A stretch of 64,000 bases of DNA, taken from assembly GCF_030296935.1 (NCBI RefSeq), contig NZ_AP028032.1:2790001-2854000 (forward strand), given 5' to 3'. Of the stretch, positions 3,817 to 33,152 are shown one piece after another (the first letter of the stretch is position 1; each line of letters starts with the position of its first letter). Source of the stretch: Coprobacter fastidiosus (GTDB lineage Bacteria > Bacteroidota > Bacteroidia > Bacteroidales > Coprobacteraceae). The notes beneath the pieces are model-generated. The model had not been told where the DNA came from. It saw only the letters and a list, made by a program, of their open reading frames with translations, and did no database searches. The translations under genes and the position numbers were made by a program.

Positions 3817-4521
3817 CTATTCAATAGGAAACGGGAAAGACTTGAGCTCTTTTTCTAAAATTTTCTCTTTGCCTTGACAATATCGGTTACATAGTTGGTG
3901 AAAACGTTCTCCGTGATTCATTTCAGATAAATGAGCTAATTCGTGAAAGATCACGTAGTCGATCAGACGATCGGGTAGGAACATGAGATGATAGGACAGG
4001 AGTATGTTGCGTCGCATATCGCATCTGCCGAGCCGTTTCCGTCCGTGGGAAACCGATACGCTGTTATAGGTCAGGTTTAATTGTTTGGCTAATAAATCGA
4101 GGCGTTCCGGCAGGTACTTTTCGGCCTCTTGTTTGATGAATCGTTTGATACCGGCAGATATGATTCTTTGGGTTTCGGGAGATTCGAAATCTGTCGTGTC
4201 GGGGCAGAATATAAATAGCGTATTGTTGTGTAGCTTGAACAGGTATTTGTTTTTGTTATGTGTTTGTATGGCAATAGTAAAGTTTCGGGTTTCGAGCAAA
4301 GTTCCCGGACGTAATATTTTGTCGTTCTTGCGTACGTATATTTTTCGTATGTTTTCTCTGTTTTTGTTTATGGATTGTGTTATCTGTGCATAGGTAATAC
4401 CTTCCGGAACGGTTATCTGTAGTGAATTATCCCGTATCTTGAAAATGAGATGCCGGGCTGTCGGGTGGAGATACAGAATTATTGTACCGAATTCGGGGTC
4501 TTCGTATTGATATTTTTTCAT
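3817..4521 (-). CDS. YgjP-like (DUF45/M48-type) zinc metallopeptidase
   Basis: The 234-residue protein carries FHELAHLSEMNHGERF near residues 188-203. This is the HExxH zinc site with a third histidine in the NHGxxF segment that marks the YgjP/DUF45 family. The N-terminal half has the beta-rich DUF45 sequence (HPTARHLIFKIRDNSLQITVP). There is no signal peptide or membrane segment, so it is probably cytoplasmic. The substrate is unknown for most of the family. It stands alone on the minus strand, separated from rimP by the rimP promoter, and the first strong repeat of the window begins just upstream of its start. Confidence 0.85.
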   Translation of the reverse strand: MKKYQYEDPEFGTIILYLHPTARHLIFKIRDNSLQITVPEGITYAQITQSINKNRENIRKIYVRKNDKILRPGTLLETRNFTIAIQTHNKNKYLFKLHNNTLFIFCPDTTDFESPETQRIISAGIKRFIKQEAEKYLPERLDLLAKQLNLTYNSVSVSHGRKRLGRCDMRRNILLSYHLMFLPDRLIDYVIFHELAHLSEMNHGERFHQLCNRYCQGKEKILEKELKSFPFPIE

Positions 4522-4566
4522 GTGGCAAATATATTGTTTTTATCAGATACTGTGTGTCTATAAATG

Positions 4567-4742
4567 TTAGAGTCTATATAAATTTTCCGACAAAGAGATT
4601 TTATCCGGTTATTTTTTTTGTGTTTCTTTCTACTCTGTTTTCTCGCTTTCATTCATCGGGTGCTCTACTATCTCCTTCGTAAGAACAAAAAAATTAGAAG
4701 AAGGTATTAAACTTGACCTGAACAAAATTTAAACAGACTTTA
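4567..4742 (+). repeat. Dispersed intergenic repeat, copy A
   Basis: This copy of 176 bases has imperfect terminal inverted repeats: left AGAGTCTATATAAATTTT, and right end reading AAAGTCTGTTTAAATTTT on the other strand. The core TTTTTGTGTTTCTTTC and the right-hand ACCTGAACAAAATTTAAAC are shared with the copies at 32980 and 57077. It fills much of the 412-base gap between the metallopeptidase and padR genes. No reading frame in it is convincing. Confidence 0.75.
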
Positions 4743-4873
4743 GGTGAACTAAATTTGCATAAGTAGTTTTCTTTATCGTGTTTTGTTCTGATCTGTTTGG
4801 GGTTAAGAATATTTATATGTATCGGAAATTTTCTATATAAATGTTTTTAACGTCTATATAAGGTTAAAATCAG

Positions 4874-4914
4874 TACCTTGTATTGCAAGGTATTTATATT
4901 TTGTGTTATATTTG
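4874..4914 (+). promoter_or_regulatory. padR promoter with overlapping inverted repeat operator
   Basis: TTG at 4883-4885, 21 bases, then TATATTTG at 4907-4914 forms the promoter. A 7-base perfect inverted repeat TACCTTG-5 nt-CAAGGTA (4874-4892) overlaps the upstream promoter element. PadR-family regulators commonly repress their own operon from such dyads, so this is the natural candidate operator (inference). Confidence 0.6.
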
Positions 4915-4933
4915 TAGCGTAAAGGTGTAATGT

Positions 4934-5260
4934 ATGAATACGGAAAATATAAAATCTCAGATGCGCAAGGGGATTCTTGAGTATTGTACGCTCTTGATTC
5001 TTAGTAAAAAGCGGGCGTATGTGTCAGATATTATACAATCTTTGAAAGAATCTCGTCTTATTGTGGTCGAAGGTACGCTTTATCCGCTGTTGACACGCTT
5101 GAAAAATGCCGGTCTGCTTGATTATGAATGGGAAGAATCTCCTCAAGGTCCTCCTCGAAAATATTATCGTTTGACAGAGACCGGGAGAGCGTTCCTGAAT
5201 GAGTTGGAAAGTGCTTGGACAGAATTGAACCGCACAGTCGAATATATTCGGGAGATATAG
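4934..5260 (+). CDS. PadR-family transcriptional regulator
   Basis: This is a 108-residue single-domain winged-helix regulator. It starts MNTENIKSQMRKGILEYC and contains the family segments YVSDIIQSLKE, VVEGTLYPLLTRLKNAGLL and PPRKYYRLTETG (helix-turn-helix followed by the beta-hairpin wing). Its size matches short PadR proteins, which have little beyond the winged helix and a C-terminal dimerisation helix (residues 85-108). It is followed after 35 bases by the PspC-domain gene. This padR-pspC pairing is recurrent in Bacteroidetes and suggests control of an envelope-stress membrane protein. The inverted repeat in its promoter suggests autoregulation. The inducer is unknown. Confidence 0.9.
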   Translation: MNTENIKSQMRKGILEYCTLLILSKKRAYVSDIIQSLKESRLIVVEGTLYPLLTRLKNAGLLDYEWEESPQGPPRKYYRLTETGRAFLNELESAWTELNRTVEYIREI

Positions 5261-5295
5261 TTTTATATAGATGATAAATAATATATATAATAGAT

Positions 5296-6393
5296 ATGAA
5301 AAAGACGCTAACGGTAAATCTTAATAATACGGTATATCATATCGATGAAGACGCTTATAGCCAGTTGCAGGATTACTTGGAAAGTCTGAACGATTATTTC
5401 CGGAATGAAGAAGGAGCAAGCGAGATATTGAGCGATATCGAGGCTCGTATTGCCGAGTTGTTTAAAGAAAGAATGCGTTTCGGTATGCAGATAATTACGG
5501 TGCGCGAGGTGGATGAAATCATCTCTGTCATGGGACATCCCGAAGATTTTGCTTCTGATACGCTGAATATTGAAACCGATGATAAGGAGGTCGGAGAAAA
5601 AGAAGTTGAAAATCAGAATACTGAAAAAGGGGAGGATGGAACGACACCTCAGGAAAAAATTCCCGAGAGAAACCGACGGCGTCTGTTTAGGGATAAGGAC
5701 GATGCTTTTCTTGGCGGTGTAGCTTCAGGATTGGGATATTATCTCGGTGTCAGCACAGCGCTTGTCCGCATTTTGTTCGTATTGTTTACTTTTCTTACCG
5801 GATATGCGCTTCTGATTTATTTGGTTTTGTGGATTTGTATTCCGGAGGCTAAAACTGCTGCACAGAAATTAGAGATGAGAGGGGAGGCGGCGACGGTCGA
5901 TAATATCAAACGATTTGTTTCCGAAACGATAGCAAAAGAGGAATTAGGACCGGAGAAAAAAACTTTCGGTGATTATGTGCTTTCGGCAATTAAGATCGTA
6001 TTGAAATTCGTATTTATAATTTTCGGTGGATGTCTTGGTTTTATTTTGCTGGTTCTTTTGTCTTCTTTATTGTTTGTGTTATTGGCGGCGGCCGGAGGCA
6101 CGGTTGGAATTGTTACGCAAGGCATAGATCCGTTTTTTATGCAGATGTTCTCTGCCGTTCACTATCCGTGGATGTTGACTGCCGTTTTGCTGGTATTGTT
6201 GGCCATTCCGGTATATGCCGTATTGAGAATGGTTTTAGGGCGTGTATTTAATTTCCCTCCCCAATCCCGCTGGGTGACAGTCTTGTTGGTTATATTGTGG
6301 AGCATAGCTTTTGTTGCCGGTATGGTAATGTGGTTTATTTCGTTACCCGGAATACATACTGTATTGAATCAGTATCAGGGGAATATAATATAG
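5296..6393 (+). CDS. PspC-domain inner membrane protein
   Basis: The 365-residue protein has a cytoplasmic N-terminal region (residues 1-90, MKKTLTVNLNNTVYHIDEDA) typical of Bacteroidetes PspC proteins. An acidic linker follows, then the PspC domain at about 127-190 (FRDKDDAFLGGVASGLGYYL and a hydrophobic hairpin ending LWICIPE). Several further membrane segments follow at roughly 235-275, 290-310 and 325-350. PspC proteins take part in phage-shock-like envelope stress responses; the exact partner here is not known. It is the second gene after padR and is closed by a strong terminator. Confidence 0.88.
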   Translation: MKKTLTVNLNNTVYHIDEDAYSQLQDYLESLNDYFRNEEGASEILSDIEARIAELFKERMRFGMQIITVREVDEIISVMGHPEDFASDTLNIETDDKEVGEKEVENQNTEKGEDGTTPQEKIPERNRRRLFRDKDDAFLGGVASGLGYYLGVSTALVRILFVLFTFLTGYALLIYLVLWICIPEAKTAAQKLEMRGEAATVDNIKRFVSETIAKEELGPEKKTFGDYVLSAIKIVLKFVFIIFGGCLGFILLVLLSSLLFVLLAAAGGTVGIVTQGIDPFFMQMFSAVHYPWMLTAVLLVLLAIPVYAVLRMVLGRVFNFPPQSRWVTVLLVILWSIAFVAGMVMWFISLPGIHTVLNQYQGNII

Positions 6394-6483: not shown

Positions 6484-7329
6484 TTATTGGCTGTTGCGAT
6501 AAGCTTGAGGACTCATGCCGACATGGCGTTTGAAATATTTCCCGAAAAATGATACGTTCGGGAAATTCAAGGAGTAAGAAATTTCCTGTATTGTCAATTC
6601 TGTCGATTTTAGTTGGGCTTTAGCGTCGAGGATTACCATTCGGGCAATAATGTCGGATGCGGTAAATCCTGTGATTTGCTTTATGGTCGTGCACAAGTGT
6701 TGCGGAGTGATATTCAGTTGTTCGGCGTAAAATGAGATGGAACGTTCTCGTGTATAATGTTGCATGACAAGTCCGACAAACTGTTTCCGAATTTCTTCTT
6801 TCCGGGTAAGGGCAGGCGGATTCAATGTATGTTTCTGATACATGTATCCGATTCCTTGCAGCATTGATTGTAAGATACTCTTGGTAATTTCCGTATTGAA
6901 TATTTCTGTGATCTGTTCCTGGGTTTTCACCAGTAAAGAAAAATATTCCGCAAGAAGTTCTGCGCTTTCTTGTTTTAAGGATATTACCGGATTTTCTATG
7001 ACTTGAGGCAGGAAATCTGCTGAAAATTTTACCATGTTGGTTTGGCTCAGAAATTCCGATGAAAAAGCGACGAAACACAATCGGACTTTTCCTTGTTGTC
7101 CGATAAACTGAAGGATATTTCCCGGTAAAATAGAGACGAAATCATTCTTCTTTATATAATAGTCGGTCATTTTTATGGAAGCATGTATCTCTCCTTCTAA
7201 ACATAACACGAAGATTCCGGCTTTTAATCGGAACGGTTGTTTGTAAAATGCCAAGATTTCTTCGGTGATATCTGTTCCTATAATGATATTTTCAGATATG
7301 TCGAATTGTGGTAAATCGGTTCTAAGCAT
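6484..7329 (-). CDS. AraC-family transcriptional regulator
   Basis: The protein has 281 residues. The N-terminal 170 residues look like a cupin-type sensor domain (GEIHASIKM, KNDFVSILPGNILQF). The C-terminal 100 residues form the double helix-turn-helix, with SISFYAEQLNITPQHLCTTI and the second-helix signature LNFPNVSFFGKYFKRHVGMS. That last segment is the AraC family hallmark. It is a lone gene with its own probable minus-strand TATTTTTG box at 7355-7362. It converges on the pspC-like gene and lies next to nadK on the same strand. No target or ligand can be named from the context. Confidence 0.9.
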   Translation of the reverse strand: MLRTDLPQFDISENIIIGTDITEEILAFYKQPFRLKAGIFVLCLEGEIHASIKMTDYYIKKNDFVSILPGNILQFIGQQGKVRLCFVAFSSEFLSQTNMVKFSADFLPQVIENPVISLKQESAELLAEYFSLLVKTQEQITEIFNTEITKSILQSMLQGIGYMYQKHTLNPPALTRKEEIRKQFVGLVMQHYTRERSISFYAEQLNITPQHLCTTIKQITGFTASDIIARMVILDAKAQLKSTELTIQEISYSLNFPNVSFFGKYFKRHVGMSPQAYRNSQ

Positions 7330-7409
7330 ATCTTGTATTTTTAATATTCGATTGCAAAAATAAGAAAATAAAACCGATATTCCTATGAAAATATTAAAAA
7401 TAGATCAAT

Positions 7410-8288
7410 TTATATATTGTATCGTTTATCTGCTCCCCACATGAGTTTGTCTCGTAAGGTATCAATAAAAACATGATTGTTTCGTTTCACGATAGGGGTA
7501 GTGAAAGGGGCTTTGCAAATAATTAATTCATGATTTGTACCCATCATGGCGGAACGTCCGTCCAGACTTACCAAAAAGTTGTTACTTCGGCTTTCGATTT
7601 GCATACGGATCGTATCTTGGTCATTGAATACCAAAGGACGGACATTCAAACTGTGGGGAGCAACCGGTGCTATTACGAAGTTCGGAGCTTGCGGAACGAG
7701 TATCGGGCCACCTACGCTCAATGAATATCCGGTCGATCCGGTAGGAGTCGAAACAATTAGCCCGTCAGCTTGATAGGTGTTCAGAAATACATCGTTCAAA
7801 TATGTGCGGATGGTGATCATTGAAGAACTGTCTCTTTTCAGAATGGCGGCTTCGTTCAGTGCAAAAGGCCAAAACTTAACGGGGAGAGCATCTGCTTTTA
7901 GTTGTAGTAGAGAACGCTCTTCGATTCGGTAATCGCCGTTAAACAGTTCTGCTACAGCTTCATCTATTTCATTTTCGGCTACATCGGCAAGAAATCCGAG
8001 ACGTCCGGTATTGATTCCCAATATCGGGATGTGTTTGTTCCCGACCCGTTCGGCAGTTTTTAAGAATGTTCCGTCTCCGCCGAGGCTGAGAGCCATATCT
8101 GCCGAAAAATTATTGTCTGTAATCAGCTTGCTGTATCGAGGTTCTATTTTCATTACAGTATGCAGAAAGCGGTAGAACTCTTCACAAATAAGAATTTCCG
8201 CATTATATTTGCTTAATGCGTTGAAAAGATGCTTTGCCTGTATGCTTTTTTCTGCTTGATATAAATTCCCGAAAATGGCTATTCTCAT
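7410..8288 (-). CDS. nadK: NAD kinase
   Basis: NAD kinase phosphorylates NAD to NADP using ATP or polyphosphate. The 292-residue protein contains the diagnostic GGDGTFLKTAERV (around residue 70), NTGRLGFLAD (about 93-102), the NEAAI segment and TPTGSTGYSLSVGGP (about 180). These make up the nucleotide- and NAD-binding sites of the family. The length is normal for bacterial NadK. It is transcribed divergently from pdxJ across a shared 196-base region, an arrangement common in Bacteroidales. Confidence 0.96.
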   Translation of the reverse strand: MRIAIFGNLYQAEKSIQAKHLFNALSKYNAEILICEEFYRFLHTVMKIEPRYSKLITDNNFSADMALSLGGDGTFLKTAERVGNKHIPILGINTGRLGFLADVAENEIDEAVAELFNGDYRIEERSLLQLKADALPVKFWPFALNEAAILKRDSSSMITIRTYLNDVFLNTYQADGLIVSTPTGSTGYSLSVGGPILVPQAPNFVIAPVAPHSLNVRPLVFNDQDTIRMQIESRSNNFLVSLDGRSAMMGTNHELIICKAPFTTPIVKRNNHVFIDTLRDKLMWGADKRYNI

Positions 8289-8359
8289 CGTTATTTACAT
8301 TTTTTATAAGCTTTTTGATCTTTTGCTAACGTTTTTCTTTAGATTTCTGTAAAACCTAT

Positions 8360-8367
8360 TAATTTTG
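8360..8367 (+). promoter_or_regulatory. Likely pdxJ -7 box
   Basis: TAATTTTG fits the TAnnTTTG element and precedes the pdxJ ATG by about 120 bases. I see no strong TTTG element 19 bases upstream, so this is a tentative call. Confidence 0.4.
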
Positions 8368-8484
8368 CATCAGCACAAAGTTCTTTTGCAAACGTACATA
8401 AAATTTTTGGCTTCGGAGATATTTTTCAGTCTTACCGGGTCGAAAAAAGTTCTTTTTATCATAAGTAGAATTAATTTTGGAAAA

Positions 8485-9198
8485 ATGACCAAATTAAGTG
8501 TAAATGTAAATAAGATTGCCACATTGCGTAATGCCAGAGGTGGCAATATGCCTAATGTCTTGAAAGTCGCGCTGGACTGTGAAGCTTTTGGTGCTGACGG
8601 AATCACGGTACATCCTCGTCCGGATGCACGGCATATCCGCTATTCTGACGTGTATGAGCTCAGACCTCAGTTAAGAACTGAATTCAACATAGAGGGTTAT
8701 CCGTCCGATCCTTTTATAAATTTGGTGTTGCAGGTCAAACCGAATCAGGTGACGTTAGTTCCCGATGCTCCGGATGCGATCACTTCCAATGCCGGTTGGG
8801 ATACACGTACGCATTTCGATTTTTTAAGCGAGATAATAGACCGATTTAATCAAGTCGGTATTCGAACATCGATCTTTGTGGATACCAATCCTGAATTGAT
8901 AGAGTTTGCCGCCAAAACCGGGACGGACAGAATCGAATTATATACCGAACCGTATGCTTCGGCTTATGCTTCGGATCGTGAAAAAGCTGTCGCTCCTTTT
9001 ATCAAGGCTGCGGCATTGGCTCATAAATTGGGCTTGGGGATCAATGCCGGACATGATCTGAATCTTGAGAATTTGCGATATTTTCATGAGCAGATTCCTG
9101 TTTTGGATGAAGTTTCTATCGGGCATGCTCTTATCACTGACGCCCTTTATTTGGGATTGCAGGAGACTATTCGCCAATATAAAGATTGTCTTAAATAA
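8485..9198 (+). CDS. pdxJ: Pyridoxine 5'-phosphate synthase
   Basis: PdxJ closes the pyridine ring in the DXP-dependent vitamin B6 pathway, from 1-deoxyxylulose 5-phosphate and aminoacetone phosphate. The 237-residue product starts [20 protein letters not shown], the standard N-terminus. An in-frame upstream extension to 8365 is rejected because it overlaps the promoter region and is not conserved in the family. TIM-barrel active-site segments are visible: [31 protein letters not shown] and SIGHALI. It heads a cluster with exbB, exbD and a tonB-like gene 26 bases downstream. That order is common in Bacteroides relatives although the functions are unrelated. Confidence 0.96.
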
Positions 9199-9224
9199 CA
9201 TCGATAACCGAAAAATAAAATTAT

Positions 9225-9926
9225 ATGAATTTGTTGCTTTCTCTTTTAGCTGATGCTAATATGGTAATGCCGGTTTCTGCCGGGACGACTGCAGCTCCTG
9301 TTGCTGAGTTGAATATGTGGGATTTGTCGCTGAAAGGCGGTGTTATTATGATTCCGCTTCTGATATTGTCTATTCTGGCAATTTATATCTTTATAGAACG
9401 GGCTGTGGTCATCCGTAAAGCGGCACGGGAAGACCGTACGTTTATGGATCGCATCAAAGACTATATCCATGAAGGAGATGTAGATGCGGCTTTGAATCTT
9501 TGTAAAAAGACCGATACTCCTTATGCGCGCTTGATTGAAAAAGGAATTACCCGATTGGGACGGCCTATGAATGATGTGCTGGTAGCGATAGAGAATGTCG
9601 GTAATCTCGAAGTTGCGAAGCTGGAGAAAGGTTTTCCTTGGTTGGCAACGGCTGCGGCGGGCGCGCCGATGCTCGGATTTCTCGGTACGGTGACCGGTAT
9701 GGTAAGAGCTTTTTACAATATGGCATCTGCCGGAACGAGTGCCGATATCACAACTTTGTCCGGAGGTATTTATGAAGCGTTGGTTACTACTGTTGCCGGT
9801 TTGGTCGTGGGGATTATAGCGCTGTTCGCTTATAATTATTTGGTAGCCCGTGTAGATGGAGTGGTCAATCAGCTCGAAGCCAAAACTATGGAATTTATGG
9901 ATCTGCTGAATGAACCTGCAGATTAA
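9225..9926 (+). CDS. exbB: MotA/TolQ/ExbB proton channel protein
   Basis: This inner-membrane proton channel subunit energises TonB. It has 233 residues. An N-terminal membrane segment lies at about 33-55 (IMIPLLILSILAIYIFIERA), followed by a cytoplasmic domain. Two C-terminal segments follow at about 140-160 (GAPMLGFLGTVTGMVRAF) and 185-210 (VTTVAGLVVGIIALFAYNYL). The GTVTGMVRAF motif is the ExbB/TolQ pore signature. A short N-terminal periplasmic stretch precedes the first segment. It is followed by exbD after 15 bases and a tonB-like gene, giving a complete energy-transduction unit. This may serve receptors such as the one at 54962. Confidence 0.93.
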   Translation: MNLLLSLLADANMVMPVSAGTTAAPVAELNMWDLSLKGGVIMIPLLILSILAIYIFIERAVVIRKAAREDRTFMDRIKDYIHEGDVDAALNLCKKTDTPYARLIEKGITRLGRPMNDVLVAIENVGNLEVAKLEKGFPWLATAAAGAPMLGFLGTVTGMVRAFYNMASAGTSADITTLSGGIYEALVTTVAGLVVGIIALFAYNYLVARVDGVVNQLEAKTMEFMDLLNEPAD

Positions 9927-9941: not shown

Positions 9942-10355
9942 ATGGCTCTGAAACGAAGAAATAGAATAGAGGCCTCATTCAGTATGGCTTCTATGACCGA
10001 TGTGATTTTTCTGTTACTGATCTTTTTCATGGTAACTTCGACTTTTGTTTTTCCGAATGCGATAAAAGTGCTGTTGCCGCAAAGTAAAGAGCAGACGGCC
10101 GCAAAGCCTTTGGCAAGGGTGACAATCGATGCACAGCTCAATTATTATGTCTCTTTCGGCAATGAAGCGGAACATCCTGTTCAGTTGGAGGAAATAGCTC
10201 CTTATTTGCTGAGTGCATTGAGTGAAGAACCAGATATGTATGTTGCTCTTTATGCTGATGAAAGCGTACCTTATAGAGAAGTTGTTAAGGTGTTGAATAT
10301 TGCCGGAGAGAATAAATTGAGAATGGTATTGGCTACGCGTCCTATAAAGGAGTAG
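9942..10355 (+). CDS. exbD: ExbD/TolR-family biopolymer transport protein
   Basis: This is the partner of ExbB in the proton channel. The 137-residue protein has one membrane segment (residues about 18-38) containing the key protonatable aspartate D20 in SMTDVIFLLLIFFMV. A periplasmic domain follows, with the usual VTIDAQLNYYVSF start and a VVKVLNIAGENKLRMV end. It lies between exbB and the tonB-like gene with gaps of 15 and 18 bases, so it is almost certainly co-transcribed. Confidence 0.93.
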   Translation: MALKRRNRIEASFSMASMTDVIFLLLIFFMVTSTFVFPNAIKVLLPQSKEQTAAKPLARVTIDAQLNYYVSFGNEAEHPVQLEEIAPYLLSALSEEPDMYVALYADESVPYREVVKVLNIAGENKLRMVLATRPIKE

Positions 10356-10373
10356 TCCCGAAAATTATGATCT

Positions 10374-11150
10374 GTGAAAGACAAGACGAAAAATAAATTA
10401 TGTGGTATAGCGGGGACGGTGTTATTCCATCTCCTGTTATTTCTTATGTTGTTTTATTTTACTTTTCCCCGTCCGGAGATTCCGGATGAGGCAAGCGGTG
10501 TTTTGGTTCAGTTGGGAACAATCGATGAGGCGAGCGGGACTTTTCAACCCGAAATGAGCGGGCAGAACGTTGCTGATGCGATGGAGGCCGAGATACCGGA
10601 TGAAGCATCCGAAGAATCTATCACACAGGATATAGAGGAGAGTGTGGCTGTCCCGGATAAAAAGAAAGAGGAGAAGAAACAGCCTGAGCCCGAGAAAAAA
10701 ACACAACCGAAGCCTGAGGTAGATAATAGAATTAAAAATCAAGTGGCCAATGCTTTCAGTAAAGGGAATGCCGGATCTAATCGAGGAACATCGGATAGGG
10801 GTTCTGGAGCAGAGGGAAGCCCTAACGGAAATAGTACTACCGGTGCTAAACACGGTTCTCCCGGTTATGGGGATTATGATTTGGGAGGTCGAGGTTTAAA
10901 AGGGGAATTGCCTATTCCTCAATATGACGCCAGTAACGATGAGGGAACGATCGTTGTTTCGATATATGTCGATGCTCAGGGAAAGGTGACTCAGGCTGCG
11001 GCTACGCCGAGCGGCAGTCGCGGAACGGCATACGCCAATCTTACGTTACGGGCAAGAGCCGAAGCGGCTGCACGGAAAGCTGTTTTTGAAAGAAAACCGG
11101 GTGCGGTTACCGAGAGGGGAACGATTACTTATTATTTCAGACAAAATTGA
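10374..11150 (+). CDS. TonB-like energy transducer
   Basis: The 258-residue protein has a short cytoplasmic N-terminus and one membrane anchor at about 10-31. A long periplasmic linker rich in E, P and K (about 95-125) and a Gly/Ser/Asn-rich stretch follow. A C-terminal domain (about 175-258, GTIVVSIYVDAQGKVTQA) resembles TonB_C. It is third in exbB-exbD-tonB order. The start is taken as GTG at 10374, because the ATG at 10367 opens only a 9-codon frame and no ATG fits the membrane segment. It should carry proton-motive energy to outer-membrane receptors. The C-terminal domain is divergent, so a TolA-like role cannot be excluded. Confidence 0.82.
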   Translation: MKDKTKNKLCGIAGTVLFHLLLFLMLFYFTFPRPEIPDEASGVLVQLGTIDEASGTFQPEMSGQNVADAMEAEIPDEASEESITQDIEESVAVPDKKKEEKKQPEPEKKTQPKPEVDNRIKNQVANAFSKGNAGSNRGTSDRGSGAEGSPNGNSTTGAKHGSPGYGDYDLGGRGLKGELPIPQYDASNDEGTIVVSIYVDAQGKVTQAAATPSGSRGTAYANLTLRARAEAAARKAVFERKPGAVTERGTITYYFRQN

Positions 11151-11184
11151 TTTAGGGTAATTTCGGCCTTTATTACGAGAAAGA

Positions 11185-12654
11185 ATGAACGGTACGGTTA
11201 TTTTACTTATTATTGTCATCTATTTTGCTTTTCTGATGCTTATATCGCATTTGACCGGGCGTAAAAGCGATAATGACACATTTTTTTTGGGAGGGAAACA
11301 ATCTCCTTGGTTTTTGGTTGCGTTCGGAATGATCGGTACATCTATCTCCGGAGTGACGTTTGTTTCTGTTCCCGGTATGCCGTTGAGTATCGACATGACT
11401 TATTTGCAGACCGTTTTGGGGTTTACGGTAGGATATCTCGTTATTGCAAAGATATTGTTGCCGCTTTATTATAAGCTTAATCTTACGTCTATTTATACAT
11501 ATCTTGAAAAGCGTTTCGGTCGAAATGCTTATAAAACCGGGGCATCGTTTTTCTTGCTTTCTAAAATCATAGGTGCAGCTGCACGTCTTTACATTGTCGT
11601 ACTTATTTTACAACGTTTTGTGTTCGATGCATGGAATGTGCCTTTTGTCGTTACATCGACTGTGATCGTTGCGCTTATTTGGCTCTATTCCCACAGAAGC
11701 GGAATAAAGACGATTGTTTGGACGGATGCTCTGCAAACAGCTTTTTTATTGGGAGCTTTAGTGTTGATAATTTGGCAGTTGACCGATAAGATGCAGCTCG
11801 ATTTTCCCGGAGTGGTGAATACGGTCAGGAACAGCGGTATGGATCGGATATTTGTTTTTGATGATTGGCAGACAAAACAGAATTTTTTTAAGCAATTTTT
11901 CAGCGGCATATTCATAACGATTGTTATGACGGGGCTCGATCAGGATATGATGCAAAAAAATCTCTCTATACGGACCTTGAAGGCTTCTCAGAAAAACATG
12001 TACTTTTACGGAGTCGCTTTTCTTCCGGTAAATCTTTTGTTTCTTGTTTTGGGGATTTTGCTGATTACGTTTGCCGGTCAGCAGCAAATCGCTATACCTG
12101 CTCTGAGCGATGAAATGCTTCCGCTTTTTGCTACGCAATATTTAGGATTTCCGGTGCTGTTGTTTTTCTGCATAGGAATTATTGCGGCTGCTTTTTCCAG
12201 TGCCGACTCGGCATTGACGGCTCTCACCACCTCGTTTTGTGTCGATATTCTCGAGGTCGGGAGATATCCGGCCTCAAAAGCGGTATTATGGCGTAAGCGG
12301 GCGCATGTTTTCATTTCGTTGCTTTTTGTCATTATTATTTGCGTGATCAGGGCTGTGAATGATAAAAGTATTATCGATGCTATCTATATGATAGCGGGTT
12401 ATACTTACGGTCCGTTGCTCGGTCTTTTTTCTTATGGACTTTTCATGCACGGAAATCCTCGGGATAAATGGATTCCTTACATCGCTTTGTTGTCTCCGGC
12501 TCTTTGCTTCGGTCTCGATTTCTTGTTGAGAGAATTATATGGTTATAAACTGGGATATGAGATGCTGATGATAAATGGGGCGTTGACATTTGCCGGGCTT
12601 TATCTGGTCGCTTTGGGTAGAGACGGGAAAAAGAGCCTCTGTCCGGAATCTTGA
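11185..12654 (+). CDS. Sodium:solute symporter (SSS family)
   Basis: The 489-residue protein has about 13 hydrophobic segments spread over its full length, typical of the LeuT-fold SSS family. Family features are visible: FLGGKQSPWFLVAFGMIGTS near residues 35-55, GASFFLLSKIIGAAARLYI in segment 4, and FSSADSALTALTTSFCVDI at about 338-356, which holds the Ser residues of the second sodium site. It follows the tonB-like gene after 34 bases and ends at a strong hairpin terminator shared with the convergent sialidase gene. The substrate cannot be told; the nearby sialidase makes sialic acid a thought, but the two are not co-transcribed. Confidence 0.88.
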   Translation: MNGTVILLIIVIYFAFLMLISHLTGRKSDNDTFFLGGKQSPWFLVAFGMIGTSISGVTFVSVPGMPLSIDMTYLQTVLGFTVGYLVIAKILLPLYYKLNLTSIYTYLEKRFGRNAYKTGASFFLLSKIIGAAARLYIVVLILQRFVFDAWNVPFVVTSTVIVALIWLYSHRSGIKTIVWTDALQTAFLLGALVLIIWQLTDKMQLDFPGVVNTVRNSGMDRIFVFDDWQTKQNFFKQFFSGIFITIVMTGLDQDMMQKNLSIRTLKASQKNMYFYGVAFLPVNLLFLVLGILLITFAGQQQIAIPALSDEMLPLFATQYLGFPVLLFFCIGIIAAAFSSADSALTALTTSFCVDILEVGRYPASKAVLWRKRAHVFISLLFVIIICVIRAVNDKSIIDAIYMIAGYTYGPLLGLFSYGLFMHGNPRDKWIPYIALLSPALCFGLDFLLRELYGYKLGYEMLMINGALTFAGLYLVALGRDGKKSLCPES

Positions 12655-20735: not shown

Positions 20736-20809
20736 GGTGCGGTAGTTCAGCTGGTTAGAATACATGCCTGTCACGCATGGGGTCGCGGGTTCGAGTCCCG
20801 TCCGCACCG
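20736..20809 (+). tRNA. tRNA-Asp (anticodon GTC)
   Basis: A full cloverleaf is visible: acceptor GGTGCGG/CCGCACC, D-arm around AGCTGGTTAGAAT, anticodon stem CATGC/GCATG with loop CTGTCAC (anticodon GTC at 20770-20772), T-arm GCGGG-TTCGAGT-CCCGT and discriminator G at 20809. CCA is not encoded; the next bases are CGAAAG. A terminator follows. The AT-rich abiH patch begins right downstream, so this tRNA may have served as an integration neighbour. Confidence 0.97.
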
Positions 20810-20821
20810 CGAAAGAAAAAG

Positions 20822-20852
20822 CTCTGATTCTGTAGAGAGTCAGAGTTTTTTT
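20822..20852 (+). terminator. Terminator after tRNA-Asp
   Basis: CTCTGATTCT and AGAGTCAGAG form a 10-bp stem with one T-G pair and a GTAG loop, followed by seven T. Confidence 0.85.
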
Positions 20853-20884
20853 ATAATAAAGTTGAATATATTTTTTAGGAGTGG

Positions 20885-22018
20885 TTATTTGATTTTCTGT
20901 TCCTTTTGTGGTAATGGTTTGCAAAACTCTTTGTTGACAACCCTATCTCTCATTAATTTCATATTGGTGAAATTTCTACTTATATTTTGAACAATTTCCA
21001 GATAATTGTCCGATCCATTAGCCTTTTGGTAGTAGAAAGGTTTTATAGATATACAATTTTTGTGTTCGAATAATGTGTTAAGTAATGTTCGGTCTGAATT
21101 TCCGCAAGAGTGCCCCATGATATATACTTGGTATGGGGTATGTTCGATAAACTCAAGGAGTTTCCGGTAACGGTCAGATTCTAAGTATCGTATTGATTTG
21201 ATGTTTTTTAAAAAAGTATTATCGTTAAGTTTGAGTAGATCTTTATAATCGTCATCTAATTCATCTCCGTAGCCGAAAATTATACTTTGAGGATGTGTTA
21301 GTTCTCCGTGAATGTGATTTATAATGAAATTTGAAGTCGAGCTAGTGTTGATATCTGCAGTTTTTGTATAGTTGAAATTCAAGAGCATTATTTGACTTGG
21401 TTTACATTCATTCAGTTTTATATCTTGCGACTCTTTATAAAACTTAGAAGCCCCTTCGATAGAAATGTCTTTTGCATCAAAAGGTTCGGTAATTATATTT
21501 TCTATTTCAGGATAAATATTATTGTTATTATTTAATTGATTATTTTGAATTTCGACTAAGTATTCTATTAGCAATGATTTGATGAGTTCTAATTCGCTAT
21601 TTAATTTTTCAGGAGTATCGTATCCTTGGGGACATTCATTTTGAGCAAATGATCTCAAAATGTTGTAAAATTCGTTTTCTATATCCACCCATCCTTTAGT
21701 GTCGATGGACCGACACACTTTTTCCATAAAAGGAGTCTGTTTAACTATATAATAATTAGGTTTATTTTTTATACAATCGATAACATTTTTTCCTTTTGGC
21801 GGATTTAAAATTGATATTTCCCTCTGAATAAAATTATTCCATTTAAAAAACTCGTCTCTTAACGTGAACGAGCACAATTCGTCGGATTCCGTATTTTTGA
21901 AGCTTTTTCTTAATGTCTTAAACCATCGTTCCCAATACCAATCGATAAAATCTTTGTATCTGGTCGGAAGTCCGTGTGCTAAATCAAAACCATTGCCTAT
22001 GAGGATTATTCTGTTCAT
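20885..22018 (-). CDS. AbiH-type bacteriophage abortive infection protein
   Basis: The 377-residue protein starts MNRIILIGNGFDLAHGLPT, the hallmark of the AbiH family (GNGFDLAHGLPTxYxDF). A second conserved region lies near the end, YIMGHSCGNSDRTLL, preceded by the conserved LNFNYTKT segment. AbiH was defined as a lactococcal phage-abortive-infection protein; its mechanism is not settled. There is no signal peptide or membrane segment. The gene lies 23 bases downstream of a broken hsdM tail and next to tRNA-Asp. The patch looks more AT-rich than the neighbours, with runs of Asn and Lys codons, which suggests horizontal transfer. Confidence 0.82.
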   Translation of the reverse strand: MNRIILIGNGFDLAHGLPTRYKDFIDWYWERWFKTLRKSFKNTESDELCSFTLRDEFFKWNNFIQREISILNPPKGKNVIDCIKNKPNYYIVKQTPFMEKVCRSIDTKGWVDIENEFYNILRSFAQNECPQGYDTPEKLNSELELIKSLLIEYLVEIQNNQLNNNNNIYPEIENIITEPFDAKDISIEGASKFYKESQDIKLNECKPSQIMLLNFNYTKTADINTSSTSNFIINHIHGELTHPQSIIFGYGDELDDDYKDLLKLNDNTFLKNIKSIRYLESDRYRKLLEFIEHTPYQVYIMGHSCGNSDRTLLNTLFEHKNCISIKPFYYQKANGSDNYLEIVQNISRNFTNMKLMRDRVVNKEFCKPLPQKEQKIK

Positions 22019-22041
22019 CTTTGTTCACGTCATTATTGCAT

Positions 22042-22307
22042 TTATTGAATCGGAGGTAGTCCCAGTTCTTCTAAAAAACGATTATGTTTGGCTTTGGCAA
22101 TCTTAATATCTTCTTCTATTTTTTTAGTTGTTTGTGAACTTCAGCCAAGTTAACGGGGATTTCTTCTTTGGCTATACTTACGTAACGAGATATATTCAGA
22201 TTATAGTCATTATCAATGATCTCACACATAGAGACAGAACGAGAGTAACGTTCTGTTTCTTTTCTGTATTGGTAAGTTTCTACAATTCCATATCTATTTG
22301 ATTCCAT
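22042..22307 (-). pseudogene. Remnant of type I restriction methyltransferase HsdM (C-terminus, frameshifted)
   Basis: Reading from 22307, IVETYQYRKETERYSRSV and NDYNLNISRYV match the end of HsdM, the methylase subunit of type I restriction systems. The frame stops at 22117 after QLKK. In the +1 frame the expected tail continues at once (KIEEDIKIAKAKHNRFLEEL, then GLPPI) and ends at TAA 22044-22042. The shift falls in a run of seven A, where eight would restore one frame. The upstream methylase domain is absent: an in-frame stop lies about 40 bases before 22307. It is therefore a short, doubly broken leftover just ahead of abiH. Confidence 0.75.
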
Positions 22308-22336
22308 GTTTGTCAGCCATTTTTTTGTTTTGGGGG

Positions 22337-22570
22337 TTATACATTAGTTTTATCTTTGTTTACAAAGATATAAAATGCTGCATTATATAATAAGTAGAGA
22401 ATAAGAAAAACTCTTTCTTTTTGTTCGGAATTACTCAAATAATAATTTATTATATTAGCGCTGTTGAGTAGTAAGACAAAAATATACACTCGAAAAAACT
22501 CTCTAATATGATCTGTGTAAAATCGGATAGTTTCTAATTTTTTCGATAAGAAATTATATATCCCGGACAT
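22337..22570 (-). CDS. Small two-pass membrane protein, unknown
   Basis: I do not recognise this 77-residue product. It has two hydrophobic stretches (about 27-46 and 53-70) separated by a short polar loop with SNSEQKER, and a basic N-terminus, so a small two-pass membrane protein is plausible. It lies upstream of the hsdM remnant and abiH on the same strand in AT-rich sequence. It could belong to the same acquired patch. No homology or ribosome-binding evidence supports it beyond the open frame and composition. Confidence 0.4.
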   Translation of the reverse strand: MSGIYNFLSKKLETIRFYTDHIREFFRVYIFVLLLNSANIINYYLSNSEQKERVFLILYLLYNAAFYIFVNKDKTNV

Positions 22571-22665
22571 TTTCAGACATATATTCGGTAATGAGTAGGA
22601 TAATATAGTTAATGTTTTGTAATTATCTTTTGGCTTTTCTTAATTAACGGTTACCTTTTAGTTAT

Positions 22666-22673
22666 TATATTTG
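22666..22673 (+). promoter_or_regulatory. -7 box of macroglobulin-like gene
   Basis: TATATTTG lies 4 bases before the ATG at 22678, which would place that ATG at the transcription start. The next in-frame ATG (22708) begins a proper signal peptide, so this box decides the start. Confidence 0.55.
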
Positions 22674-22707
22674 TAGTATGACAGATAGGTTAGGAGGGCA
22701 ATGTATT

Positions 22708-25700
22708 ATGAAAAAGTTTATTCTTGTTTTTTTATGGGTAATCGGGGGGATATGCACAGTTTTCTCTCAGGGGATTACGAAAAATGAGGTTGTTGCTATG
22801 CGGAACAAAACGGCGAAACCGCGTACGGCTTTGGTTGAAGCTGATGAGAATTTGAAGAATGCGATACAAGAAGAGAACAATCCTTTGATAGCAAAGTATC
22901 TGCTCGAATATGTGCATTATCAGTTACTGATTTCACGAGATAGTTTCCCTTCGTTGATACGGTTTGCCGAACATTTGAGGGAGTCTTCTACCGATTCGGT
23001 GCAACGTGCCGTGCTCAGCTCTATTGAGGCTCAGATGATCTTTGATTATTATGAGAATACTCGGGGGGTATTGGAGAATGGTGTTCTGACAGATGTAGCT
23101 CCCGATCTTGCGAAGATCGATGAATGGGATAGAGCAGCTTTTGTAAGAAAGATATCCGATCTGTTGCAGTCTTCCGTCAAACCGGCAGAAATTTTACATA
23201 AAACTTCTACTCAGATTTATAAGGAAGCTCTGGATACTGATAAAGATTGGGAAATATTGACCCCAACCATGCTCGACTTTTTGGCGTACCGTGCAATAGA
23301 TATATATGAGGGATTATTGTCGAATCCGGTGCTTCCTCTTATTCTTGAAGAGCCTTTGTTGAAAGAATTGAATATGCCGGCGGCGGATTTTGTAAACTAT
23401 CCGTATTTCCCTGAGAAATATCAGTTGAGACATCAGATAATTGCCGTGTATCAGTTGTTGTTGAGATTTTCCGATCCGGGATCGCCCTCTTACCTTATAG
23501 CTGATTTGAAACGGTTGAAGTTTTTACAGGATAACAACTCCGGGGTTGAATACCCTCAAAAATTAGAGAATCTACTGAATGTTTATAAAGATAGTCCCTA
23601 TTCGGTAGAAATAGCGATAGATTTATTGGATTATTATAGTCGGATATGGAATACATCTCCCGAAACCAAAGCCTATCTGGTAAAGTTATCTGATCGGTTG
23701 ATTTCCCGTTTCCCGGAATATCCCCGTTTGGATTGTCTTAAATCTGAACGAGATCAATTGACGGCGTATAGCTTCAATCTGAATATGGGTCAGGTTTTAT
23801 ATCCGGGAGAACCGCATACACTCTCTTTTGAGTATAAGAATATCAAGCAGCTTTATTTGACGTTGTATCGTACGGAGGGTAATGACAGCATACTGCAATT
23901 TGCAAATACTTTGCATTTGAGTGATACGTTGAGTTTGGCAGATCGTACCGGGAAATGTGTTCTTCCGGCACTGAATAACGGAGAGTATTTCTTGAGATTT
24001 TTTTCGGAAGAGAAAGCTGATCTTGGAAAAATCGGTTTTTATGTTTCCCGCATCTACGCGGCGACTTTAGCTCCGACAGAAAAAGAGACTCTCGTTATCT
24101 TGACTGATTCTAAAAGCGGAAAACCGTTATCCGGGATTCCGGTAAAATTGTTTCGTTCAGATTCTGAGGATTCTTATGTGAATACGGTAAAGGCAGATCG
24201 TTTGGGTTTGGTTCGTTTGGGTGAGAAAGATACGGTAATGTATTTTAAACCCGAAATGAAGAATGATGTTTATTATCCACTTCAGAACTTGAGATACGGA
24301 TATTGGAGCGGTGATGCGGATACGGAACGTGAAATGATTTCTCTCTTTACCGACCGTTCTGTTTATCGTCCCGGACAGACACTTTATTTTTCCGGAATTG
24401 ATTATCGGGTGGGAGAAAAAGTCGGGACAGTCGTGCCTGACGGACGTTATACAGTCGTTCTTTCGGCTCAAGGTAAAGATATTGCTCGTTGTACGGTTCA
24501 AGGCGACTCGTTCGGTTCGTTTACCGGATCTTTCGTGCTTCCTTCGGATATGGTAAACGGATATTGCCGGATTAGGGTAGAAGGTCGTAACGAAAGTTTA
24601 TCTGTACAAGTGTCGGAATATAAAAGACCCACTTTCCGTATTTTATTCGAGCCGGTAAAGGATGCCGTATCTTTAGGGCAGGTGGTCTCGGTTAACGGCA
24701 AAGTCATCAGCTTTTCGGGAGTTCCTGTTTCGGGAGCGGATGTTTCTTATACGGTGCAACGTCTTGCGAACAGTTGGTGGAGAAATAAGGGTGAACAGAT
24801 AGCTCAAGGGGAATTGTTTACGGGAGAAGACGGTGAGTTTACTCTCCGATTTGTTGCTCGGAAAAGCGATAAGGATGTGTTGAAAACCGGAACTTTTTAT
24901 CGATTCAGGATTGATGTGAATGTAACATCTGCTAATGGTGAAACGCAATCTCAATCTTATTGGGTGACGGTGGGAGAAAGTCCATTGTCGGTGCAGATGG
25001 AAGTTCCCGAAATGATTGACAAGAATGCGCCCAATCCGGTCAAGTTCAGGATAACGAATATGGCAGGGATGCCGGTTTCGGTGAAATGTAAGTATATATT
25101 ATATTCGATGTATGGTTTGGAAAATCCTATATCGAAGCATGATATTATAAGTGCCGATTCGTTGAAAGTGCGGATGCAGGTAGAAGAAAAGAGTTTCGTG
25201 TCGGATAATATTCCTGCTTTGGAAAGTTGGAAAAAATTGCCTTCGGGCATATACCGTCTTGTACTTCAGGTGACGGATACTAATGGAAACTTGGTTATCA
25301 GAAATGCCGATTTTGCTTTATATAGTATGCAAGATAAAAAGCCTCCGATAAAAACGTATGAATGGATACCTGAAGATTTGTATCAAGTTTCGGACGGAGA
25401 GTCTGTCGATGTCATATACGGGACTTCTATCAAGCAGGCATACGTTTTGTATAATTTATATGATGGATTTCGGTTGGTAGACTCCCGGAGAGTAAAAATA
25501 TCGGATAAAAATTACCGATTCCCTGTTTTATATAAACCGGAATATGGTGATCGTCTTAAGCTTTTCGTATCTTTTATAAAAGAAGGATGTTCTTATAACT
25601 CTGTGATAAATATACATCGGAAAAAGCCGGATATGAAATTGTCGATAACGACTTCTACTTTCCGGGACAGAACAGTTCCGGGCAGTCAAGAGTCTTGGAG

Positions 25701-31926: not shown

Positions 31927-32002
31927 TAAGAGTCGGCTTTAATAAGCAAATTGTTTTGTATTTATTTAAGTATAAGTATATTATATATATTTTTTTTATT
32001 TC

Positions 32003-32010
32003 TATATTTG
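32003..32010 (+). promoter_or_regulatory. -7 box of tandem-repeat protein gene
   Basis: TATATTTG, 28 bases before the ATG at 32038; no clear upstream TTTG at 19 bases. Confidence 0.45.
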
Positions 32011-32037
32011 TTATTGTATAAATAAAGAGGTATTACC

Positions 32038-32982
32038 ATGAAAAAACTTTATCTGATAATTTCTTGTACATTGTTTTTTATCGTAGAGTTGGCAGCCCAA
32101 ATAACCGGTTTATTTACTTATGAAGGAGGGTATTTTGTGAAAGACGGGAATAATTGGGCAGAATACCGTCCTCAATCTAAGGATGGGGTATGGGCTTCTT
32201 ATATGAAATATGACGAAGACGAAAATTATTACTATATAAATAATTCGAAATGTTCTCTTTGTGTTCCGAAGAAAAAGCACAATAAGTTTTATATTTCTAA
32301 AAATGGCGAATGGGAGGTGATTTATTATACAAAAGAGATTTATAGCTATTTTAAAGCAAACGGGCGTCAAATATATTGCTACGAAGGAGGGTATTTTGTA
32401 AAAGACGGGAATAATTGGGCAGAATACCGTCCTCAATCTGAGGATGGGGTATGGGCTTCTTATATGAAATATGACGAAGACGAAAATTATTACTATATAA
32501 ATAATTCGAAATGTTCTCTTTGTGTTCCAAAGAAAAAGCACAATAAGTTTTATATTTCTAAAAATGGCGAATGGAAGGTGATTTATAACACGACCGATAT
32601 ATACGATGTTGCTTCGGAGTACGATTATATGCTTTATTTCAAATATTATAAAGTCGCTGATGCTGAAGGTAAATTACAAGAAGTGAATGAACCTGCATCG
32701 ATCAGTCTTAGTAGAAAAGGTAAAATGCGCTTATGTTGCGGAAATAAAAGCTATGATGGGAAATTTAGTGAGTTGGCAGTGACAACATTAAGAAACTCTG
32801 ATACGGAATTGGGATTTAAGTTGATCGTAGATGAAAATAATTATATCCAGTTTATCGGGGACTGGTGTATGGTTAATGTTGAGAGTATCTGTCCCTTTAT
32901 GGATTTTATGGATTGTACAAACAAAGATTTGATAGAGATAATAAAAAATAAAATTAAGGATAAAAGTTTCTTTGTTGATTAA
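32038..32982 (+). CDS. Secreted protein with two near-identical internal repeats, unknown
   Basis: I do not recognise the family. The 314-residue product has a signal peptide (to about 21, ending ELAAQ). Two copies of an 87-residue unit follow, beginning YEGGYFVKDGNNWAEYRPQS and ending near GEWEVIY. The unit is rich in Tyr, Trp, Asn and Lys and has a KCSLCVPKKKH segment with paired Cys. The DNA copies (from 32119 and 32380, offset 261 bases) differ at only a few positions, so the duplication is recent. A different C-terminal domain of about 110 residues follows. The stop codon lies in the left end of repeat copy C. Confidence 0.75.
   Translation: MKKLYLIISCTLFFIVELAAQITGLFTYEGGYFVKDGNNWAEYRPQSKDGVWASYMKYDEDENYYYINNSKCSLCVPKKKHNKFYISKNGEWEVIYYTKEIYSYFKANGRQIYCYEGGYFVKDGNNWAEYRPQSEDGVWASYMKYDEDENYYYINNSKCSLCVPKKKHNKFYISKNGEWKVIYNTTDIYDVASEYDYMLYFKYYKVADAEGKLQEVNEPASISLSRKGKMRLCCGNKSYDGKFSELAVTTLRNSDTELGFKLIVDENNYIQFIGDWCMVNVESICPFMDFMDCTNKDLIEIIKNKIKDKSFFVD
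32119..32590 (+). repeat. In-frame tandem duplication, 261-bp period
   Basis: Bases from 32119 and from 32380 run nearly identical for over 200 bases (for example GTCTAAGGATGG against GTCTGAGGATGG context), with mostly single-base differences. The period of 261 keeps the reading frame. The last part of each unit diverges. Confidence 0.9.
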
Positions 32983-33152
32983 GAGCCTGTGTGGATTTCT
33001 AATAATAATATAATCAGGCCATTTTTGTGTTTCCTTTCAGTCTGTTTTCCCGTTTTCATTCGTCAGATAGTCCGTTATCCTTCTTATAAAAACAGAAAAA
33101 CATCCTCGAAAGAAACTTTCAAATCTAACCCGAGTAAAATTCAGATGAGAAC
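32980..33152 (+). repeat. Dispersed intergenic repeat, copy C
   Basis: The left end TAAGAGCCTGTGTGGATTTC, the core CATTTTTGTGTTTCCTTTCAG, then CTGTTTT...AAAACAG pairing arms, GAAAGAAAC and the right end CCCGAGTAAAATTCAG. The first three bases are the stop codon of the upstream gene. It shares its whole length with copy E at 57077. Confidence 0.8.

Follow-up and report, generated by a model that had tools for sequence, protein, structure and literature searches.

An abiH gene behind the remnant leader of a putatively deleted type I restriction-modification operon in Coprobacter fastidiosus

Introduction

First described in 1996, AbiH was still listed as having an unknown mechanism in a 2025 paper, where a lone abiH gene protected Streptococcus thermophilus against Vansinderenvirus (PMC12322248). 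An abortive effector within a type I restriction-modification (RM) operon is exemplified by PrrC of the EcoprrI system, which is kept latent by the Hsd complex (PMC3506569). The same source set out, in 2012, an immunity-suicide coupling hypothesis in which predicted Sir2 enzymes are components of AbiH and Sir2 enzymes are linked to type I RM; both predictions date from that year. The passages of that article considered here contain neither a structure of AbiH nor tallies of AbiH next to RM genes, and describe no comparable remnant. For the effectors DSR2 and ThsA, the pocket residues are given as N133, Y134, D135 and H171 in the former and N112, Y113, D114 and H152 in the latter, and D135A is reported to reduce DSR2 activity (PMC11263360); cleavage by ThsA is abolished by N112A and by H152A (PMC7272460).

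Here we describe an abiH gene located in a 64,000-nucleotide stretch of DNA (hereafter the window), which corresponds to positions 2790001-2854000 of the single-contig, 3.44 Mb genome of Coprobacter fastidiosus (99.88 % complete). Its product falls in the same Pfam family (PF14253) as AbiH of Lactococcus and S. thermophilus and covers nearly the whole model, but differs from the lactococcal and streptococcal proteins in scoring just 24.1 bits to the PADLOC AbiH model (E 5.4e-6) and in sitting behind an hsdM tail. The likeness to SIR2-HerA (Nezha), DSR2 and ThsA consists of a predicted fold and, as matched by motif, the order of Asn-Tyr and His. In contrast to these proteins, AbiH carries Thr or Ser in place of Asp and yields no secure sequence match; it is also without a DSR2-like sensor domain, and its slot without the HerA partner of Nezha. 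The parallel with PrrC lies in operon context, as the type I operon with the closest HsdM tail that we found (locus L137) carries PrrC. AbiH, however, is not a PrrC homologue, and no RM enzyme is left in the slot, whereas relatives have one.

Results

A variable slot beside tRNA-Asp

The sole tRNA that ARAGORN predicted in the window, tRNA-Asp, flanks one side of a variable slot, whilst an alpha-2-macroglobulin gene flanks the other. The slot and its contents were as follows.

20736..20810, plus strand: tRNA-Asp (GTC), from ARAGORN; left border of the slot
20811..22607, no strand: variable slot, delimited by blastn against genome G003, which has other ORFs there
20885..22018, minus strand: abiH, 377 aa, intact, with a predicted SIR2-like fold (Pfam, alignment and structure model)
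22042..22286, minus strand: end of a type I hsdM gene, about 80 codons with the stop and one frameshift (HsdM alignments to L137 and L037)
22288..22344, minus strand: beginning of an XRE controller gene, in which 16 codons precede an amber codon, with the match extending to a TGG codon (XRE gene alignments)
22352..22369, minus strand: inverted repeat with 8-base arms and a 2-base spacer (arms placed by eye); putative operator and promoter
22337..22570, minus strand: 77-aa ORF, initially annotated as a membrane protein; overlaps the leader and is most likely not a gene

G003 is the nearest member of the genus at this slot, having both flanks in common with the window and the same gene order (ABC genes, cca, tRNA-Asp, alpha-2-macroglobulin). 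DNA similarity between the two broke off at 20810, the end of the tRNA, and restarted at 22608. The G003 slot contained two large ORFs, which we named by eye as AraC-like and membrane/kinase-like; the best relative of the latter elsewhere in the genus was 42 % identical over about half its length. The description of the patch as AT-rich was accurate, with GC content at 0.31-0.33 in 1-kb windows lying in or mostly in the slot versus 0.41 just outside on both sides, and an equally low value elsewhere in the profile at 32000-32999 (0.325). A hairpin and T run, identified by eye, follow the tRNA. We likewise found no clear attachment repeat: when the final 15 bases of the tRNA were compared without gaps to 20811-23200, at most 10/15 bases matched. 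The patch had no second copy in its own genome, where the other matches were tRNA genes and short matches.

Comparison of the region downstream of tRNA-Asp was made across species of the genus (five genomes). AbiH was carried only by G000 and G001, and in G001 it occupied another location, straight 3' of hsdR in a locus that also contained hsdM. Because AbiH is confined to these two genomes and the G003 slot holds other genes, the decayed patch does not represent an old state shared by the genus, an alternative raised in the initial annotation.

AbiH is intact and has a predicted SIR2-like fold

The 377-aa product matched Pfam AbiH over model positions 1-251 of 260 (E 5.8e-30; 105.7 bits against a cut-off of 30.9), confirming that an intact abiH-type gene lies near tRNA-Asp; NCBIfam held no family for it. 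Alignment with 22 relatives showed that 53 of the 54 columns invariant among them were kept, the exception being Asn for Tyr at position 224. Identity to relatives was 40 % across residues 1-125, 25 % across 126-206 and 62 % across 207-377, and the proteins of L034 and L052 gave best matches to the window protein of 72-73 % towards its end but 37-42 % towards its start. The C-terminal half of AbiH is far more conserved than the N-terminal half and the middle. Two relatives of AbiH were found on viral contigs.

An AlphaFold model of the protein had a mean pLDDT of 87.3 and a pTM of 0.87. Structural comparison with VIA-align gave a Z of 13.0 to 8yhx_Q (its title names HerA alone), of 12.3 to PsSIR2 (rmsd 5.1, 247 aligned) and of about 10 to ThsA and DSR2 chains. 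The other rows shown were SIR2-HerA, SPARSA, KomBC, ThsA, DSR2, Avs5 and sirtuin entries; we take all the listed entries to hold SIR2 domains, in part from their titles. Foldseek returned a single match under E 0.001, again 8yhx_Q, and SIR2-HerA chains came next. A search of the AbiH profile against PDB gave no SIR2 link, its best match being the unrelated apolipoprotein A-I (E 0.08), and hhalign of AbiH against five SIR2 proteins reached a probability of 7.9 %. A SIR2 fold is predicted for AbiH by the structure model; sequence methods by themselves did not reveal it.

Asn216, Tyr217, Thr218 and His237 were invariant in the 23 aligned AbiH proteins. The order of Asn-Tyr and then His is that of DSR2 and ThsA, as judged by motif matching and not superposition, with Thr218 (Thr in 23/23) sitting where DSR2 and ThsA have Asp (D135 and D114, respectively). 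Of 27 further AbiH proteins listed, 24 have T or S directly after FNY, and three gave no match to the motif searched for. We read AbiH as, most probably, an abortive effector of SIR2-like type that is frequently carried along with RM operons.

AbiH genes near RM genes in the order

Searching the order Bacteroidales for AbiH at E 1e-10 produced 35 matches in 29 of 295 genomes, and these 29 genomes also held 99 N6_Mtase matches at E 1e-6. With the window's own AbiH left out, 9/34 lay no more than 10 kb from an N6 methylase compared to 0.9 expected from genome sizes irrespective of contig ends; five of these nine came from one genus (G084, G187 and G275), so the Poisson probability of 4.6e-7 is too strong. 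The other 25 were located away from N6 methylases. An RM gene was present in at least 17 of 32 loci of close homologues, a lower bound given that the Pfam scan covered part of the other 15 and several were cut by contig ends. These loci, made up of 29 from the homologue search, two from the viral-contig search and L052, were chosen by similarity to the window AbiH and not at random. HsdM or HsdR matches were seen in L024, L026, L027, L030, L031, L033, L036, L037, L042, L046 and L052, and other RM genes in L021, L023, L028, L032, L035 and L047.

Gene arrangements in these loci were diverse. The initial annotation proposed looking for complete hsdMSR-abiH loci, and one does exist: L037 has the order hsdR-hsdS-hsdM-abiH, with a one-base overlap between hsdM and abiH. 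In L027 and L052, abiH is immediately 3' of hsdR (hsdM and hsdR were seen in L052, and hsdS was not identified), and in L116 it starts two bases 3' of an N6 methylase. In L021, abiH follows an XRE gene, a pair of C5 methylases, an AAA protein, a LlaJI-like nuclease and two further ORFs. L137 (4795-11934, in G260) is a type I operon of XRE-hsdR-hsdS-PrrC-hsdM, its PrrC matching PADLOC at 3.9e-99. The complete order XRE-R-S-M-abiH occurred in no single locus examined.

Some neighbouring arrangements were observed in passing. L046 (1126-11263) is a type I locus with both a SIR2_2 protein (4483-5982) and AbiH (10001-11263), and a separate protein of approximately 527 aa with a SIR2_2 domain is present in the genome of the window (C1:682254-682679, L128). 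In L023 (10001-13993), AbiH lies directly 5' of a DpnII-type system comprising a D12 methylase, a DpnII nuclease and a second methylase, and L028 and L032 resemble L023 by ORF starts.

Probable remnants of an RM operon lie upstream of abiH

Read along the minus strand, the slot comprises a leader, an XRE start with an amber codon, a junction, an hsdM tail and intact abiH. According to the initial annotation, all that survives of a type I methylase is its final 80 codons. Our alignments agree, the tail covering residues 448-527 of the 528-aa L037 HsdM in two frames, with the frame changing at seven consecutive A near 22120. The best HsdM-tail match that we found was L137, identical at 44 of 54 residues (HsdM 460-513); the L037 match was identical at 37 of 54 (HsdM 448-501). 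The tail then continues in a second frame to its stop. Profile scores were 2.3e-8 for Pfam N6_Mtase, 2.3e-12 for PADLOC MTase_I and 2.2e-6 for NCBIfam TIGR00497, the last far below its cut-off. Proteins of L037 and L052 used as queries detected no further hsdM, hsdS or hsdR pieces in the slot at E < 0.01. The complete type I gene set (hsdM, hsdS and hsdR) is absent, and the hsdM end alone remains.

The XRE start meets the hsdM tail at 22288/22286 and shares 26 to 33 of 48 bases with six XRE genes. For the stretch 5' of the hsdM tail, the best places elsewhere were the leaders and first codons of XRE-type controller genes, both at 786.9 kb in the same genome (L057, E 0.038) and in L078/L137. 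The leader is common to L057 and L137. When the L057 leader was used as the query, no other position on either strand of the window scored as well as the slot (54 versus 32 for the next), and the score of 54 compared with a maximum of 34 in 500 shuffles; the L137 leader likewise placed the slot first on both strands (47 versus 30). The more distant leaders of L021, L138, L139 and L022 did not find the slot as their best place in the window. Cut to exclude the XRE codons, the L137 leader reached a score of 25, below the 27 attained by shuffled sequence; the stretch 5' of L037 hsdR scored 18, with 33 as the highest shuffled value. Sequence overlapping the inverted repeat resembles, by eye, a Bacteroides -7 box. 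Relative to the L137 layout, PrrC included, about 6.8 kb of DNA is missing from the slot.

In the six loci with this type of XRE gene, the genes that follow belong to type I systems (L137 and L138), an N6 methylase (L057), C5 methylases (L021), a type III system (L139) and IetAS (L022). This small XRE type may possibly be a general controller of defence operons, in a small and partly biased set where four of the six were included for an AbiH, RM or leader match and L138 and L139 came from an XRE protein search. In the XRE-headed L057 (6921-9615, about 786.9-789.6 kb in the genome of the window), a stop codon separates an HSDR_N-like ORF (7108-7812) from an N6 methylase ORF (7924-9615) that shares its frame; in G275, one 837-aa ORF with a similar start occupies 8023-10536 of L118.

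The 77-aa ORF was initially annotated as a small, possibly two-pass membrane protein and potential partner of AbiH, a proposal that our data do not support. Hydropathy stayed below 1.6 throughout, no Pfam or PADLOC match was obtained and the best NCBIfam score was 0.019. Matches at E <= 0.01 occurred in 13 of 295 genomes of the order. Apart from its own copy, the 12 matches were no stronger than 7.7e-4, and ten of them carry internal stops. One of the two stop-free matches, L078, corresponds to a translated leader, that of the XRE controller gene heading a type I RM operon. Predicted membrane spans were not enriched in ORFs of at least 90 aa beside AbiH (10/42 versus 90/405 in the same loci). 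We rejected the two-pass membrane protein and its role as a partner on the combined basis of its hydropathy, weak homologues with mostly broken frames, overlap with the leader and ordinary membrane neighbours. The ORF most likely represents the leader read as protein and not a gene.

Discussion

We consider it probable that the slot is an internal-deletion derivative of an operon ordered XRE-hsdR-hsdS-hsdM-abiH, and that abiH now encodes a lone abortive effector with a SIR2 fold. This reading draws on the observed anatomy of the slot, two half-templates, the RM linkage, the predicted fold and the conserved residues. The ancestor would have been a type I RM operon whose order, from XRE controller to abiH, we composed from L137 and L037. 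Roughly 6-7 kb would have been deleted, starting near codon 19 of the XRE gene and stopping short of the final ~80 codons of hsdM, with the leader and abiH kept at opposite ends, and the junction may have originated in a single such event. Because the leader and first XRE codons also remain, an internal deletion that spared both operon ends is the preferred account of the loss. The initial suggestion of a decayed defence island is upheld in the sense of a decayed type I RM locus with a surviving abiH, consistent with the L037 gene order and the N6 methylase linkage, but not in the sense of an island with attachment repeats.

The slot might instead be a dying remnant, in which the same deletion occurred and abiH is silent or useless, its frame intact only because the event was recent. 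The frameshifted hsdM tail and the amber codon in the XRE start do point to a decaying slot, and this account merits consideration, yet abiH has 377 codons free of stops and retains 53/54 invariant columns, and a lone AbiH is not unusual, because 25/34 are away from N6 methylases; on balance we regard it as unlikely. Arrival of the pieces in two unrelated events, with an hsdM-tail-abiH fragment recombining in behind a stray XRE leader and no operon deleted in place, would accommodate the lack of any full XRE-R-S-M-abiH locus and the different genes in the G003 slot. However, the three pieces are co-directional, in operon order and within 500 bases of each other, and XRE genes of this type head RM operons, including that of L137 with the closest hsdM tail found, which makes separate arrivals improbable.

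An assembly or sequencing artefact, such that the junction or frameshift is absent from the organism, is more improbable still: the frameshift does fall at a run of seven A, a frequent error site, and may itself be a sequencing error, but the genome is a single contig of near-full completeness, and the one other full N6 methylase locus found in it is of another kind. We give least credence to abiH operating with a two-pass membrane partner, for which the 77-aa ORF is at least open and moderately hydrophobic, as its homologues with intact frames appear only as weak matches, it overlaps the leader and membrane neighbours are no more common beside AbiH than elsewhere in the same loci.

Under the internal-deletion reading, the abiH product would consume NAD+ or a related nucleotide upon phage infection and so halt growth, a reaction and trigger that we infer. 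Within complete loci, AbiH would act as an add-on effector beside the RM enzyme, much as PrrC does in a related operon. In the slot it would act by itself, and its transcription may start in the former leader, with the XRE controller gone, provided that the leader retains promoter activity. A more speculative extension, which we hold to be doubtful, casts AbiH as a guard effector that RM operons can exchange for PrrC. Loss of the RM enzyme and XRE controller would then have left the copy described here behind the leader of its own operon as a free-standing, unrepressed SIR2-like effector with a changed (Asn-Tyr-Thr) pocket, which would sense phage unaided and need no restraint from RM proteins.

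A literature search on SIR2 proteins embedded in type I RM operons found nothing. The new elements here are the anatomy of the remnant, support for the Sir2 prediction from a structure model, and the finding of PrrC in one related type I operon and AbiH in another. The predicted SIR2-like fold and changed pocket open AbiH to a direct enzyme test, and the pairing of an orphan copy with relatives inside RM operons makes it possible to ask if AbiH is held back by RM proteins or functions independently. More broadly, the slot illustrates a possible way for the core of a defence operon to disappear while an effector persists behind the leader, and suggests that partner genes such as abiH can outlive the system they came with.
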